A stretch of DNA of 64,000 bases from Microbacterium galbinum (GTDB lineage: Bacteria; Actinomycetota; Actinomycetes; Actinomycetales; Microbacteriaceae). The DNA lies in contig NZ_JAHWXM010000003.1 of assembly GCF_023091225.1 (NCBI RefSeq), positions 1 to 64,000 on the forward strand, given 5' to 3'. Position numbers and translations under genes: made by a program. Positions 57,635 through 64,000 of this stretch are shown here, one piece after another; the first letter of the stretch is position 1; each line of letters opens with the position of its first letter. The notes under the pieces were generated by a model. It saw only the letters and a list, made by a program, of their open reading frames with translations, was not told the origin of the DNA and searched no databases.

Positions 57635-58615
57635 ATGACGAAGGCCCTGATCCTCGGCGGCACCGGATGGCTGTCGAGTCGGATCGCCCGCCGCCTCCTC
57701 GACGAGGGCGCCGCCGTGACCTGCCTCGCGCGGGGGACCCGCCCGTTGCCGCCGGGGGCGACGCGCGTGGTCGGGGACCGGACCGGTGCCGATCCGTACG
57801 CGGCGCTCGACGGTGAATGGGACCTCGTGGTCGACGTCTCGTCCTCGGCGCTCCAGGTCGCCCGGGCCGTCGACGAGCTCGGAGACCGCGCCGCCCACTG
57901 GACCTTCGTGTCGTCCGTCTCGGTGTACGCCGAGGACGAGACGGTGGGCGCCGACGAGAGAGCGCCACGGCATCCGTCCTCCCGCGCGGAGGATGCCGAC
58001 TACGGTGCGCAGAAGGCGGCGGCGGAGGATGCCGTCGCCGCGCTGGGCGACCGGGCGCTGATCGTGCGACCCGGTCTGATCGTGGGCGAGGGCGACCCGA
58101 GCGACCGCTTCGGTTACTGGGCGGCGGCGTTCGCACGGGCGGGGGAGCGACCGGTGCTGGTGCCGCCCCTGGCCGGCCGGACCGCGCAGATCGTCGACGT
58201 CGACGACCTCGCCGCGTACGTCGCCTCCTCGCGAGCCGTCGGCGCGGTGAACGCGGTCGGCGACAGCATCCCGCTCGCCGACATGCTCGAGATCGTGCGC
58301 GGTGCCGCCGGACACACCGGCGGCGTGCGCGAGGCGAGCGAGGAGTGGTTGCGCGCGCGCAGCGTGGAGTACTGGATGGGCGTGCGCTCGTTGCCGCTCT
58401 GGTTGCCGGCCGACATGACCGGATTCATGACCCGTCGCAACGAGAGGTTCCTCGCGACGGGAGGCGCGCTGAGCCCGCTCGACGCGACGGCCGCGCGGGT
58501 CGTGGTCGACGAGCTCGTGCGCGGTGTGGATCGTCCGCGCCGCGCCGGGCTCAGCCGCGCGGAAGAGGCGGGTCTCCTCGGCGAGCTCGGCGGCCGGTCA
58601 CGGTCGCTTCGCTAG
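57635..58615 (+). CDS. NAD-dependent epimerase/dehydratase-like protein
   Basis: A 326-residue Rossmann protein: LILGGTGWLSSRIARRLLDE is the cofactor site, with YGAQKAAAEDA holding the YxxxK pair and VSSVSVYAEDE. Extended SDR-type. The substrate is unknown. It lies directly before the TPP riboswitch. Confidence 0.82.
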   Translation: MTKALILGGTGWLSSRIARRLLDEGAAVTCLARGTRPLPPGATRVVGDRTGADPYAALDGEWDLVVDVSSSALQVARAVDELGDRAAHWTFVSSVSVYAEDETVGADERAPRHPSSRAEDADYGAQKAAAEDAVAALGDRALIVRPGLIVGEGDPSDRFGYWAAAFARAGERPVLVPPLAGRTAQIVDVDDLAAYVASSRAVGAVNAVGDSIPLADMLEIVRGAAGHTGGVREASEEWLRARSVEYWMGVRSLPLWLPADMTGFMTRRNERFLATGGALSPLDATAARVVVDELVRGVDRPRRAGLSRAEEAGLLGELGGRSRSLR

Positions 58616-58618
58616 ACT
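58613..58618 (+). promoter_or_regulatory. -10 box of the thi transcript
   Basis: TAGACT overlaps the stop of the epimerase gene; the transcript should begin near 58625, the first base of the riboswitch. Confidence 0.5.
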
Positions 58619-58624
58619 CTGGGC

Positions 58625-58705
58625 GAGTGACACGGGGTGCCGCATCCGCGGCTGAGATCACACCCGTCGAACCTGATCTAGTTCGTACTAGCGAAGGGAT
58701 GTCGC
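58625..58705 (+). promoter_or_regulatory. TPP riboswitch (THI element)
   Basis: The thi-box core is visible: ACACGGGGTGCC (58629-58640), GCTGAGAT (58651-58658), ACCCGTCGAACCTGATC (58662-58678) and GCGAAGGGA (58691-58699). The closing stem pairs TGACA (58627-58631) with TGTCG (58700-58704). GAAGGGA doubles as the ribosome site 7 bases before the thiM ATG, so ligand binding should hide it and shut down translation. Confidence 0.93.
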
Positions 58706-58706
58706 A

Positions 58707-59555
58707 ATGAGCGATCTTCTGCGTCCATCGTCCGCCCCCTCGACCGCGCAGTCCGCGGCCGAACTGCTCGAAGCGCTGCGCACGGCTGCGCCGTTGACCC
58801 AGTGCATCACCAACGCGGTCGTCACCGGATTCACCGCCAACGTGCTGCTCGCGGTCGGAGCCGCGCCGGCGATGGTCGACATCGTGGGCGAGGCGGGGAT
58901 GTTCGCGGGTGCGGCCTCCGGGCTGCTCGTGAACCTCGGCACCCCGACCCCGGAACAGCGCGCGGCGAGCCTCGAGGCGGTCGAGGCGGCGACCCTCGCC
59001 GGCACTCCCTGGGTGCTCGATCCCGTCGCGATCGGTGTGCTCCCGGTGCGCACCTCCCTGGCGGGCGAGCTCGCCGAGCGTCGGCCGACGGCCATCCGCG
59101 GCAACGCGTCGGAGATCCTCGCGCTGGCGGGTATGAGCACGGGCGGACGCGGGGTCGATGCCACCGACGGCACCGAAGCCGCACTCGACGCGGCCCGACA
59201 CCTCGCTCGTCGCCATGGCAGCATCGTCGCCGTCTCGGGCGCCGTCGATCTGCTGACCGACGGCGAGCGGGTTCTCCGGCTGTCGAACGGTGACGCGCTC
59301 CTGACGCGCGTGACCGGAGGAGGATGCGCACTCGGGGCGGTGATGGCGGCGTTCCTCGGCACCGCCAGGGCGACCGACACCGGAGCGCTGGATGCCGTCG
59401 CCGGGGCTTCTCTCGTCTACACGATCGCCGCGGAGGATGCGGCGGCGTCGGCGCCGGGGCCGGGCAGCTTCGCCGTCGCCCTGCTGGACGCGCTCGCCGC
59501 CGTCGAGCCGGCAGAGGTCATCGCTCGCGCGCACGTCGAGGAGGGAGCGCGGTGA
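58707..59555 (+). CDS. thiM: Hydroxyethylthiazole kinase
   Basis: A 282-residue kinase that phosphorylates salvaged thiazole. Conserved: [44 protein letters not shown] and [18 protein letters not shown] with the catalytic Cys. Under the TPP riboswitch; overlaps the next gene by 4 bases (GTGA). Confidence 0.95.
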
Positions 59556-61708
59556 TCGCGGATCTCTCCCTGTACCTCGTGACGGACGCCGCCCTGTGCG
59601 GTGCACGCGGCGTCGTCGAGACCGTGCGGGAGGCGGTCGACGGTGGCGTGCGCATCGTCCAGCTCCGCGACAAGGATGCCGAGCACTCCGACGTGGTCGC
59701 TCGCCTGGTCGAGCTGTCGCGCGTGATCGATGGGCGAGCGCTCCTCGTGGTGAACGACCGTCTGGAGGCGGCTCTCGATGCACGCGCGCAGGGCGCCCGA
59801 GTCGACGGGGTGCATCTCGGTCAGGGCGACGAGTCGGCGCTCCACGCGCGTGCGGTGCTGGGACCCGACGCGCTGATCGGGCTCACGGCGAACAGTGCGG
59901 CCCATCTCGCCGCGCTCCACGCATTGCCCGAGGGCACGGTCGACTACCTCGGGGTGGGAGTCATCCGCCCGACGGCGACCAAGCCCGACCACCCGCCGGC
60001 TCTCGGCATCGAGGTGTTCCGGGCGTTCGCCCGGGCCACCGCCCTTCCCTGCGTCGCGATCGGTGGCGTCGGCATCGACGACACCGAGGATCTGCAGTCC
60101 GCCGGCGCCGCAGGGCTCGCCGTCGTCTCCGCGCTCTGCGCCTCGCCGGATCCGCGTGCCGCGGCCTCCGAGTTCCGCGCGCGGTGGCGGCGGGGCGCGG
60201 TGCCACGGGTGCTGAGTATCGCCGGCAGCGATCCCTCCGGCGGTGCGGGGATCCAGGCCGACCTCAAGTCGATCGCGGCGAACGGCGGATACGGGATGGC
60301 GGCGATCGCCGCGCTCACCGTGCAGAACACGCGCGGCGTGCGCGATGTGCACGTGCCGGACGCCGCGTTCCTCTCGGCGCAGCTGGAGGCGCTGTCGGAC
60401 GACATCGTGATCGACGCCGTCAAGATCGGGATGCTCGCGAACGTCGAGGCCGTGCGCGTCGTGAGTGCGTGGCTGAATCGGGTGCGCCCGCCGATCGTGG
60501 TGCTCGACCCCGTGATGGTGTCGACGAGCGGGGATCGTCTGCTCGACGCGGATGCCGAGGACGCTCTGGCCTCGCTGCTGCACCGCGCGCATCTCGTCAC
60601 CCCGAACCTCGCGGAACTCGCCGTCCTCACCCGCCGGGAGATCGAGGGATGGCCCGCGGCGCTCGCCGCAGCCGAGGAGCTGTCGACCGAGTACGGCACG
60701 GCGGTGCTGGTGAAGGGCGGTCACCTCCCCGGCGATCAGGCTCCGGACGCGATCATCGACGTGCGATCCGGCTCACGGGAGGAGTTCGGCGGCGGTCGCA
60801 TCGCGACGGCGAACACCCACGGCACGGGATGCTCTCTGTCCTCCGCCCTCGCGACACGACTCGCCCGCGGAGACGACCTCACCGAGGCGGTGCGCGCTGC
60901 GCGGAGCTGGCTGCGCGAGTCGCTGCGGGAGAGCGGTGCCCTGCACGTCGGTGGCGGTCACGGCCCGGTGCATCACTTCGCGGGGCTCTGGGCGCGGGGC
61001 GGTGCGGGCACGCGACCGCTCCCGGAGGAGGTCGCCGAGGACTGGTGGCAGGGCATCGCCGGGATCCGGGCGGGCATCGACGGCCTCCCGTTCGTCCGCG
61101 GACTCGCCGACGGTTCCCTCCCCACGGAGGACTTCCTCTTCTACCTTGCGCAGGACGCGCTGTATCTCCGTGACTATGCGCGCGTCCTCGCCGATGCCGC
61201 CCGACTCGCACCCACCCCGGACGAGCAGGCGTTCTGGGCGGAATCGGCCCGCGGGTCGATCCTGGGTGAGCTCGAACTGCACGCCTCCTGGTTGACACCG
61301 GCGCAGGGGGTGGCGGCGGCCACGTTCGCCGCGGACGCCTCGCCGACGACAACCGCATACCTCGACCACCTGCGATCCGTGGCGTTCGGGGGTGACTATC
61401 CCGAGCTGATCGCCGCCGTGCTGCCGTGCTTCTGGCTCTACACGGACCTCGGCGAGCGTCTGCACGCGGGGGAGTTCGGGGAGCGCGCCCGAGACCCGGA
61501 GCATCCGTACGCCACGTGGCTCGCGACGTATGCCGACCCCGCCTTCGCCGAGGCGACCGCCCGGGCGATCGCGTTCGTCACCCGGGCGGCGGCCGCGGCG
61601 GATGACGAGACCCGCGCGCGCATGCGGCGTGCGTTCGAACGCTCCAGCGTTCACGAGCAGGCGTTCTTCCGTGCCCCGGGGGAGCGGGGCGGCGACTCGG
61701 TGACGTGA
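59552..61708 (+). CDS. thiED-tenA: ThiE-ThiD-TenA trifunctional fusion
   Basis: A 718-residue fusion. Residues 1-212 are thiamine phosphate synthase ([38 protein letters not shown]). Residues 218-475 are HMP-P kinase ([41 protein letters not shown]). Residues 495-718 are a TenA-type thiaminase II ([20 protein letters not shown] with D535; [14 protein letters not shown] with C626). All three active sites look complete. It joins salvage (TenA, ThiD) and coupling (ThiE) steps after ThiM on one riboswitch-controlled mRNA. GTG start at 59552. Confidence 0.93.
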
Positions 61709-61713
61709 CGGAT

Positions 61714-61743
61714 TTGCGGATGCCGTCGAGGGCGCGCTATCGT
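61714..61743 (+). promoter_or_regulatory. Promoter of the arg leader frame
   Basis: TTGCGG (61714-61719), an 18-base spacer, and TATCGT (61738-61743) place the transcription start at or next to ATG 61750. Confidence 0.6.
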
Positions 61744-61749
61744 CGCGAC

Positions 61750-61830
61750 ATGCCTTCGGCCGCTTCCGCTGTCTCGACGCTCGTCCCGAGCGCCGCTCCG
61801 GTGCGCCGACGCCGCGACCGCCGACGTTAG
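61750..61830 (+). CDS. Arginine-rich leader peptide upstream of argC
   Basis: A 26-codon frame, MPSAASAVSTLVPSAAPV then RRRRDRRR and stop. Seven of the last eight codons are Arg (CGC and CGA, one CGT). The ATG is exactly 12 bases after a TATCGT -10, the same leaderless geometry used by other genes in the window. It lies 98 bases before argC. Amino-acid operons in actinobacteria are known to use short leader peptides rich in the cognate residue; this frame fits that role for arginine. It could be a chance frame in GC-rich DNA, but promoter, start and Arg run coincide. Confidence 0.6.
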   Translation: MPSAASAVSTLVPSAAPVRRRRDRRR

Positions 61831-61928
61831 GCGACCCCGCGCTCCTGCCTGCCGATCCCGGCGGACGATGGTCGAGCACCGGTGTCGCCGCCCCGGTCCC
61901 CGACAGCCCCGACCGTTAAGGTAGAAGC
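61831..61928 (+). promoter_or_regulatory. Candidate attenuator region between leader and argC
   Basis: CGGCGG (61859-61864) can pair with CCGCCG of the Arg codons (61818-61823) or with CCGCC downstream (61888-61892), giving two exclusive folds that a stalled ribosome could choose between. CGCC/GGCG (about 61820-61834) folds across the leader stop. TAAGGT (61917-61922) is 12 bases before the argC ATG and may be a second leaderless promoter or a ribosome site (AAGG). No T run is seen. Confidence 0.45.
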
Positions 61929-62993
61929 ATGACGTACTCCGTCGCCGTCTCCGGCGCATCCGGCTACGCGGGCGGCGAGATCCTCCGCCTCCTCGCCGCT
62001 CATCCAGACATCGAGATCCGCACCGTCACGGCGCACTCGAACGCCGGACAGCCGCTCGTCCAGCATCAGCCCCACCTGCGCTCCCTCGCGCACCTCACCC
62101 TGCAGGACACCACGCCCGAGATCCTCGCGGGTCACGACATCGTCGTGCTCGCGCTGCCGCACGGACAGTCCGGGCAGTACACGGACGCGCTGGGCGACGT
62201 TCCGCTCGTCATCGACGCCGGTGCCGATCACCGTCTGACGTCGCAGGACGCCTGGGACGCGTTCTACGGAGGCACCTTCCACGATGCCTGGACCTACGGC
62301 GTGCCCGAGCTCCTCGTCGACGGAACGAAGCAGCGCGAGCGCCTGCGCGGTGCCACACGCATCGCTGCTCCCGGCTGCAACGCCTCCACCGTCAGCCTCA
62401 GCCTCGCCCCCGGGGTCGCCGCCGGTGTGATCGACCCGGGCGACATCGTCTCGGTGCTCGCGGTCGGCCCCTCCGGTGCGGGAAAGAACCTGAAGACCAA
62501 CCTGCTCGCCAGCGAGGTCCTCGGCACCGCGAACCCCTACGCCGTGGGCGGCACCCACCGGCACATCCCCGAGATCCGGCAGGCGCTCGCCGCAGCTGCG
62601 CCCGCGAGCACCGGCGCATCGGGCGACGGCATCCGCATCTCGTTCACCCCGGTGATCGTGCCGATGTCGCGGGGGATCCTCGCGACGTCGACCGCGCCGA
62701 TCGTGCCCGGTGCGTCCGACGCCGACATCCGCGCCGCCTGGCAGAACGCCTACGGTGACGAGACCTTCGTGCAGCTGCTGCCCGAGGGCGTGTTCCCGCG
62801 CACGGCCGACGTGCTCGGTGCGAACACCGCGCTGATCGGTCTCGCGATCGACCGTGCGGCGAATCGGGTCACGGTGGTCGCCGCGGTCGACAACCTCGTC
62901 AAGGGCACCGCCGGCGCCGCCATCCAGTCCATGAACATCGCGCTCGGCCTCCCCGAGGACCGCGCGCTCTCAGTGAACGGAGTCGCCCCGTGA
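61929..62993 (+). CDS. argC: N-acetyl-gamma-glutamyl-phosphate reductase
   Basis: A 354-residue reductase of arginine synthesis. The NADP site is [20 protein letters not shown], the catalytic Cys is in [13 protein letters not shown], and the C-terminal NIALGLPED is typical. ATG 61929. argJ overlaps by 4 bases. Start of an argCJ... operon. Confidence 0.95.
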
Positions 62994-64000
62994 GCGTCAC
63001 CGCCCCCGCAGGTTTCGAAGCGGCAGGCGTCGCCGCCGGCCTCAAGTCCACCGGCAAGCCCGATGTCGCCGTCGTCGTCAACCGCGGCCCGCGTAAGGTC
63101 GGCGCCGCCGTGTTCACGAGCAACCGCGCCAAGGCGAACCCGATCATCTGGTCGCAGCAGGTGATCGCCGATCGCGTCGTCGAGGCGGTCGTGCTCAACT
63201 CCGGTGGCGCGAACTGCTTCACCGGAAGCTTCGGATTCCAGACCACGCACCAGACGGCCGAGAAGGCCGCGGAGCTGCTCGACATCAGCGCGGGTGACGT
63301 GCTCGTGTGCTCGACCGGGTTGATCGGCACCGGTGACGAGGTGTTCCGCGCGAAGGTGCTCGCCGGCACCGAGCAGGCGATCGCCACGCTGTCCGCCGAC
63401 GGCGGCGACGCCGCGGCCCAGGCGATCATGACGACCGACACCGTCGCGAAGACGGCGGTCGTGCAGGGCGGCGGATGGACGATCGGCGGCATGGCGAAGG
63501 GCGCCGGCATGCTGGCTCCCGGACTCGCCACCATGCTGGTCGTGGTGACGACGGATGCCGACCTCGAGCCGCTCGAGGCGGATGCCGCGCTCCGCGCAGC
63601 GACCGGCACCACGTTCGACCGGCTCGACTCCGACGGATGCATGTCGACCAACGACCAGGTCACCCTCCTCGCCAACGGGGCGAGCGGGGTGAAGCCCGAC
63701 CTGGATGCGTTCCGCTCGGCGCTGCGCGAGCTCTGCCAGGAACTGGCGGTCAAGCTGCAGGGCGATGCGGAGGGCGCGAGCCACGACATCACGATCGAGG
63801 TGCGCGGCGCGGTGTCCGAGCAGGATGCCGTCGAGGTCGGCCGTTCGGTGGCCCGCAACAATCTCTTCAAGGCGGCGATCTTCGGCAACGACCCCAACTG
63901 GGGTCGGGTGCTCGCCGCCATCGGCACGACGTCCGCGCAGTTCGACCCCTACGACGTCGACGTCTGGATGAATGACGTGCGCGTGTGCACCGCAGGCGGT
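62990..64000 (+). CDS. argJ: Ornithine acetyltransferase ArgJ, partial
   Basis: At least 337 residues, cut by the right edge. The self-cleavage site is in [20 protein letters not shown] (Ala-Thr). Also [11 protein letters not shown] and [23 protein letters not shown] 62990 overlaps the argC stop. Recycles the acetyl group from N-acetylornithine to glutamate. Confidence 0.95.

Follow-up and report, generated by a model that had tools for sequence, protein, structure and literature searches.

Leader peptides and arginine control in Actinomycetota

Canestrari et al. 2020 reportedly described leaderless short open reading frames (ORFs) encoding polycysteine in mycobacteria. Here, we analyzed an arginine-rich short ORF in front of argC, the first gene of the arginine-synthesis operon, in a 64,000-nucleotide (nt) stretch of Microbacterium galbinum DNA (family Microbacteriaceae; positions 1 to 64,000 of contig NZ_JAHWXM010000003.1; hereafter the window), together with the corresponding regions of its relatives. 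With a probability of roughly three in four, we regard the element as an arginine-specific, ribosome-mediated attenuator of argCJBDFH that employs a leaderless leader peptide and would play the role held by ArgR in neighbouring families. The element resembles the polycysteine ORFs in that a short, predicted leaderless ORF carries a stretch of cognate codons 5′ of operonic genes in Actinomycetota; a TANNNT box 6–7 nt before the start codon fits the predicted leaderless transcript. Compared with that study by its title only, the Microbacteriaceae leader is distinguished by arginine in place of cysteine, by a conserved strand at the stop codon with a potential partner downstream, by codons of a single tRNA isoacceptor, and by its coincidence with the absence of ArgR. 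Cysteine-rich upstream ORFs had been reported earlier, according to the accessible part of PMC4633059.

Two further types of leader are close in function. In the accessible part of PMC1262725, no terminator is described for the LEU element of leuA in Actinobacteria, as is the case for the arginine leader; however, the codon run of the LEU element pairs with the Shine–Dalgarno (SD) site, and such pairing was near chance in the arginine leader (5/57 family and 2/19 Microbacterium sequences). The same part of that source reports no conserved RNA structures 5′ of arginine operons in the Actinobacteria then studied, Leifsonia xyli included. Classical trp/ilvB-type attenuators, such as mycobacterial ilvB1 (accessible part of PMC13236596), are like the arginine leader in containing regulatory codons and in having the stop codon at a position where the ribosome can mask a switch strand. 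Unlike them, the arginine leader has no intrinsic terminator in 61600–62000 and no general alternative terminator stem. Control by ArgR and the ARG box concerns the same operon and presumably the same signal, but relies on a protein repressor that was not found in the Microbacteriaceae sampled. Our literature search, with subscription journals largely outside its scope, yielded neither an account of an actinobacterial leader peptide for arginine nor a study of ArgR in Microbacteriaceae.

Apparent absence of ArgR and the ARG box in Microbacteriaceae

ArgR (PF02863) was matched in none of the 120 Microbacteriaceae genomes drawn, that of the window among them, and in 8 of the 14 control genomes. 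When genomes were drawn from the whole order, 137 of 149 had a match, and the 12 without one comprised 10 Microbacteriaceae and two others, so that the other families scored 137/139. In a draw from the class, ArgR was found in 271/295 genomes; among the 20 listed of the 24 lacking it, 17 were Microbacteriaceae and three lay outside the family. The binding site follows the same pattern. With an ARG-box consensus that was itself derived from the sequences of the other families, we found an ARG-box-like site 5′ of argC in 29/38 genomes of other families, and none in three sets of Microbacteriaceae argC upstream regions (0/79, 0/56 and 0/52; total 0/187). This apparent loss of both ArgR and its box is a point that the initial annotation missed; it lies outside the region covered there. 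As judged from sequence, the best reading is that the attenuator took over from ArgR. It suggests a possible route to the control of arginine synthesis in a family without detected ArgR, where a DNA-binding repressor has apparently given way, in many genera, to a sensor based on translation.

A conserved, predicted leaderless ORF precedes argC

All parts of the leader region described below, and argC, lie on the + strand. A 26-codon ORF with a TAG stop occupies 61750..61830 (ATG at 61750, TAG at 61828–61830); it encodes MPSAASAVSTLVPSAAPVRRRRDRRR, and its stop is 98 nt upstream of the argC ATG at 61929. A TTGCGG sequence at 61714..61719, the candidate −35 element, is followed after an 18-nt spacer by TATCGT at 61738..61743, the candidate −10 element, with exactly 6 nt between it and the leader ATG, a geometry that predicts a leaderless transcript. 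The initial annotation had described this frame, its promoter geometry and its Arg run, and every one of these details is borne out. The operon that follows starts with argC (61929..62993, assigned by NCBIfam) and reads argC-argJ-argB-argD-argF-argH in the genome of the window (locus L220), with argH directly after argF (NCBIfam matches TIGR01850, NF003802, TIGR00761, NF002874, TIGR00658 and TIGR00838).

To compare relatives, 80 loci, mostly titled Microbacterium, were collected by ArgC similarity, and 79 of them could be tested, since the remaining one has only 52 nt of upstream sequence. Furthermore, ArgC was matched in 114 of the 120 Microbacteriaceae genomes, and 109 upstream regions were examined after five had been left out. 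Note that the Microbacterium loci and the family genomes may overlap in species. A strict detector required an ATG or GTG 120–270 nt 5′ of argC, a TANNNT box 6–7 nt before it, a length of 15–45 codons and at least five Arg among the last 18. It found a leader in 79/79 Microbacterium loci (dinucleotide shuffles, 4/3160), in 52/109 Microbacteriaceae genomes (6/4360) and in 0/38 genomes of other families of the order (2/1520). Because the element was already known when the detector was designed, the shuffle rates gauge chance ORFs and do not amount to a blind test. The leader stands far above chance, with shuffles at about 0.1%. With a relaxed detector, 57 family leaders were retained after removal of one false positive, 56 among the 109 and one (G315) from the order draw. 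By eye, a leader with a longer spacer was recognized in a further family genome, G171.

The alignment of upstream regions across relatives, as the initial annotation had proposed, showed a frame that is conserved, a peptide that drifts, and Arg codons and promoter spacing that are kept; neither loss of the frame nor free variation of the Arg codons, which that annotation had named as signs against it, occurred. The distance from the start codon to the GGCG element at the leader's end takes 11 values among Microbacterium leaders, all in a single frame (79/79), and the family peptides diverge strongly outside their Arg-rich end. The promoter is proposed from the actinobacterial TANNNT geometry and its conservation; a generic sigma-70 scan of 61600–62000 with the Escherichia coli consensus detected no promoter. 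The spacer between TANNNT and the start codon is 6 nt in 76/79 and 7 nt in 3/79 Microbacterium loci, and 6 nt in 48/57 and 7 nt in 9/57 family leaders, a set chosen for TANNNT geometry. A TTG is present at spacing 18 in 70/79 Microbacterium loci and at 18–19 in 24/57 family leaders, with 4–5% in shuffled upstream sequence. Five Microbacterium loci (L006, L015, L016, L017 and L018) carry an in-frame insertion mid-peptide (RFLSERSETKG and similar), which may be a dispersed repeat; the Arg tail stays in frame.

We also searched the 120 genomes with a covariance model of the leader, scoring 39 candidates per genome under strict filters. Matches at E ≤ 4.1e-4 occurred in 59/120 genomes, all directly 5′ of argC; those with E of 9e-4 to 0.01 were mostly away from argC and were regarded as chance. 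Because most of the matched sequences had been used to build the model, the search is circular for presence and was used for the location at argC only.

Arg codons and the proposed sensor

The leader of the window holds two groups of Arg codons. Cluster I (CGC CGA CGC CGC, 61804..61815), the proposed sensor, lies 15–26 nt 5′ of a GGCGAC sequence at the stop codon, hereafter strand A, and cluster II (CGC CGA CGT, 61819..61827) directly precedes the stop. The same arrangement recurs in the relatives: the GGCG element was found in 136/136 leaders, and Arg codons concentrate from −29 to −17 relative to it, as well as at −11 and −8. An Arg codon begins at −8 in all 136. In the 74 Microbacterium leaders whose stop is arranged as in the window, this codon, the second from the stop, is always CGA, and the third is always CGC. 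Arg is present at codon −7 in 70, at −8 in 69 and at −9 in 58 of these 74, with frequent synonymous change at the three positions, mainly among CGC, CGT and CGA. The conserved frame and the positions of the Arg codons support a leaderless arginine leader peptide before argCJ whose Arg codons are likely the sensor, as had been proposed at the outset.

Codon choice in cluster I is strongly skewed. CGG makes up 2.8% of its Arg codons in the family and 2.1% in Microbacterium, whereas its share in argC is 23.9% for 60 family genomes and 28% for the 80 loci. On the other hand, CGA is at 16.6% (family) and 25.9% (Microbacterium) in cluster I versus 4.9% and 2.2% in argC. Outside cluster I in the same leaders, CGG accounts for 13–17%, and in a small sample of genes from the genome of the window (202 Arg codons, with argC entered twice), the shares of CGG and CGA are 23.8% and 7.9%, respectively. 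Rfam identified 46 tRNA-like places in this genome, 45 of which ARAGORN names as tRNA, and among the tRNAs found were tRNA-Arg genes with anticodons ACG, CCG, CCT and TCT, one each. The ACG-anticodon tRNA-Arg, which carries inosine, decodes CGU, CGC and CGA. Since the sensor codons are nearly all CGC, CGT or CGA, tRNA-Arg(ACG), one of four species, should read them. The codon rule (CGC, CGT, CGA, not CGG) thus predicts one isoacceptor as the sensor and is directly testable.

An Arg-rich peptide could also act as such, with arginine as the ligand that stalls the ribosome. The fungal arginine attenuator peptide is a known case of nascent-peptide arrest by an Arg-responsive peptide, and the Arg-rich C-terminus of the leader is indeed kept in position. 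However, the peptide is poorly conserved outside the Arg codons, the number of Arg varies, and a bias against CGG would be unexpected were only the amino acid relevant; we consider this the least probable of the explanations weighed here.

A helix between the stop codon and a downstream strand

Strand A (GGCGAC, 61830..61835), whose first G is the final base of the TAG stop, can form a duplex with GTCGCC at 61884..61889, hereafter A′. A, in the form GGCGNC, overlaps the stop codon in 74/79 Microbacterium and 34/57 family leaders. The A:A′ duplex was within the best 5% of shuffles in 39/57 family and 32/79 Microbacterium sequences. In an alignment of 58 leaders (46 of the 57 in the family set and 12 of the 79 from Microbacterium), 91.5% of cells pair and 11 show double changes, compared with 4.0 in shuffled alignments. 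This alignment excludes ten near-copies or long cases, selected by name, as well as over-long ones, selected by length, and two of 60 references were dropped (one was empty, the other had a misplaced A′). As A′ had been placed by best duplex before the alignment, the 58-row count favours the helix, and the duplex shuffles, which underwent the same search, are the fairer test.

On this basis, the following switch can be proposed. At low levels of charged tRNA-Arg, the ribosome would stall at cluster I, leaving A free to pair with A′ (GUCGCC in the RNA), and argC expression would be permitted. When arginine is plentiful, the ribosome would reach the stop that overlaps A, mask A and block A:A′, giving low expression. 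Which of the two states is "on" is taken from feedback logic.

The initial annotation had proposed another switch, in which a CGGCGG segment pairs either with the Arg codons or with a downstream CCGCC. Both CGGCGG (61859–61864) and CCGCC (61888–61892) are present in the window. Nevertheless, CGGCGG occurs between the leader stop and argC in only 28/79 Microbacterium and 1/57 family leaders, and the Arg cluster paired with the segment downstream scarcely better than synonymous-codon controls did. The interpretation offered there is therefore retained for the leader peptide and its Arg sensor and not for the CGGCGG switch; the conserved helix instead joins the GGCGNC located at the stop codon to a GUCGCC further downstream.

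We examined pairing of the Arg codons with A and A′ on the family sequences and on thinned Microbacterium sets (19 sequences for alternative partners, 18 for synonym controls). Random synonyms from the same pool in cluster I hardly weakened its pairing with A′, so this pairing does not account for the codon bias. Likewise, the idea that it explains the CGA excess was rejected, with only 4/57 and 0/18 sequences in the best 10%; across all 77 usable Microbacterium sequences, the mean was −16.4 versus −15.4 kcal/mol for the null, and three were in the best 10%. The last Arg codons paired above shuffles with A in 12/57 family and 6/19 Microbacterium sequences, with A′ in 11/57 and 3/19, and with the spacer in 10/56 and 0/19. 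Of the helices that would exclude one another in such a switch, A:A′ is conserved, and its competitors are found in a minority of sequences only.

These data also bear on whether the leader could be a DNA or RNA element with no translated sensor, in which pairing sequences or a protein-binding site would give rise to the Arg codons incidentally. Such an element would fit the strong base conservation of the CGCCGA..GGCGAC core and the ability of the last Arg codons to pair with A in 44–46 of the 58 aligned sequences. This pairing, however, shows no covariation in the alignment and fails in 12–14/58; moreover, the frame is maintained over 11 lengths with the start codon locked to TANNNT, and cluster I undergoes synonymous change with pairing little or not at all above controls. 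An untranslated element is accordingly very improbable.

Other structures near the helix are less regular. A possible inner hairpin between A and A′, P2 (61851..61862), is variable in sequence and appears as a GCCG/CGGC stem in one fold of the window; the stretch between A and A′ folds within the best 5% of shuffles in 18/57 family and 8/77 Microbacterium sequences (two of the 79 were dropped from these tests). A hairpin around A′, P3 (ACCGG..CCGGT, 61878..61897), was noticed by eye and rejected as a general element, as it is within the best 5% in only 9/57 family and 1/77 Microbacterium sequences. It is limited to certain lineages and strong in a few genera (for example, G149, G229, G176, G246, G315 and G173). 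Combining A:A′ and P3 into an H-type pseudoknot looks difficult in Microbacterium, where the loop is seemingly too short for both. Five Microbacterium loci (L044, L051, L068, L072 and L077) have, by eye, an extra hairpin-like stretch 3′ of A′, with GCCGTC or GTCGCC followed by GGCGAC.

From the proposed switch to argC expression

The "off" output is the least certain step of the arginine attenuator. A scan of 61600–62000 in the window gave no intrinsic-terminator-like site, and no conserved stem blocking the SD site was seen; hence, we take early termination upstream of argC, probably by Rho, as the likeliest output, although at somewhat less than an even chance. A C-rich, G-poor, rut-like stretch was considered separately and found too weak to use: C/G at −60 to −30 is 39/33% in family leader genomes, 44/32% in Microbacterium and 36/35% in leader-less genomes.

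Ranked after it is translational attenuation, a variant that differs in the output step only. Here, the stalled ribosome would open, or the finished ribosome close, a structure that governs ribosome loading at the argC SD site; alternatively, ribosomes that terminate at the leader stop would re-initiate at argC. The window has an SD-like AAGG at 61918..61921, identified by conservation, and such a site is present in 55/57 family leader genomes and 51/52 leader genomes of a set used for an ArgC tree. The short distance from the leader stop to argC (64–186 nt) and the lack of terminators noted above would also suit this output. Conserved pairing that reaches the SD site was nevertheless looked for and not found: it pairs with cluster I in 5/57 family and 2/19 Microbacterium sequences, with A in 5/57 and 3/19, with A′ in 3/57 and 0/19, and with the spacer in 0/56 and 0/19, where about 5% is expected by chance, and the stretch from A′ to the SD site is very variable in Microbacterium. 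We regard translational attenuation as a tentative second choice.

The AAGG lies within TAAGGT (61917–61922), which could also be used as a −10 box, and argC might then be expressed mainly from a leaderless promoter of its own, with the leader as a side product. TAAGGT stands 6–7 nt before argC in 79/79 Microbacterium and 37/57 family leader genomes, and among the 34 leader-less genomes of the tree set, 25 have only a TANNNT box 6–7 nt before argC, eight have an SD site and one has neither. The contrast in argC starts between genomes with and without the leader, in turn, counts in favour of the attenuator. On the other hand, AAGG is the constant part, and 18/57 family leader genomes have no TANNNT yet retain the SD-like site. 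An argC promoter as the main source of expression thus appears improbable.

Evidence weighing against the proposed attenuator

Several results count against the arginine attenuator. First, roughly half of the 109 family genomes lack the leader, although ArgR was detected in none of 120; the leader is thus not required everywhere. Second, the stop codon begins 19 nt past A in 5/79 Microbacterium leaders and 7–16 nt past it in 23/57 family leaders, and masking would be partial or absent there. In the former five (L064, L066, L076, L078 and L079), the switch strand no longer has its TAG, and the frame extends by about ten codons (..RRISATPRSSRA), contrary to simple masking. Third, support for the RNA switch is uneven: the fifth A:A′ pair is broken in 16/58 sequences and the seventh in 15/58, and RNAalifold gives four nearly invariant pairs only, with no credit for covariation. 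The leader RNA of the window shows no folding advantage over shuffled sequence (z −1.1 and −0.9), and A:A′ is absent from both of its minimum-energy folds, one of which was made from a stretch starting one base inside A. Neither A nor A′ has a general alternative partner, as the pairings with the last Arg codons, although mostly above the 5% expected, are in a minority, and the lack of an intrinsic terminator in the window points the same way. Fourth, the link between leader and SD site has about four informative independent pairs on the tree (median p 0.125).

Distribution and possible origin of the leader

In the midpoint-rooted ArgC tree (91 rows), both halves contain leaders, in 22/42 and 30/49 rows. 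Their presence requires 14 changes on the best tree, of which at least six are forced by well-supported branches. This one-gene tree, rooted for drawing only, fits an old leader that may have been lost several times, and lineages without the leader can serve as natural comparisons.

Six family genomes (L179, which is G231, and G152, G179, G248, G252 and G183) have no separate leader; its position is occupied by the 3′ end of the neighbouring gene, which resembles the tRNA-synthetase gene pheT, as judged from its tail (..GERFGATLRD-stop and similar). These ends mostly carry GGGGCGAC, and the covariance model matches four of the six 5′ of argC (E 2.6e-6 to 3.4e-4). Of five genomes with a pheT-like end in the leader's place, two have an SD site before argC and three a TANNNT box only. 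Leader tails such as RRFSATSHR resemble the pheT-like tail, so the leader may derive from a pheT-like end. A broader proposal combines these points: the whole family would have lost ArgR, and a ribosome reading tRNA-Arg(ACG) charging would control arginine synthesis via a leaderless leader whose stop is fused to a switch strand, with no intrinsic terminator, a pheT-like 3′ end replacing the leader in one group of genomes. Taken as a whole, this is a tentative proposal that falls a little short of even odds.

Neighbouring features in the window

An Rfam search of 58000–64000 (E up to 1) gave no T-box or riboswitch match in the region directly upstream of argC; apart from a thiamine pyrophosphate (TPP) riboswitch at 58623, it matched only sR53, once and weakly, within argC. 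The TPP riboswitch (RF00059, 58623–58716, 72.8 bits) lies 5′ of seemingly thiamine-related genes, as judged by eye, that precede argC. Among them, a long frame of 794 amino acids (59324–61708) located 5′ of the leader appears, again by eye, to be a fusion of several thiamine-synthesis domains, and its stop immediately precedes the −35 box of the leader.
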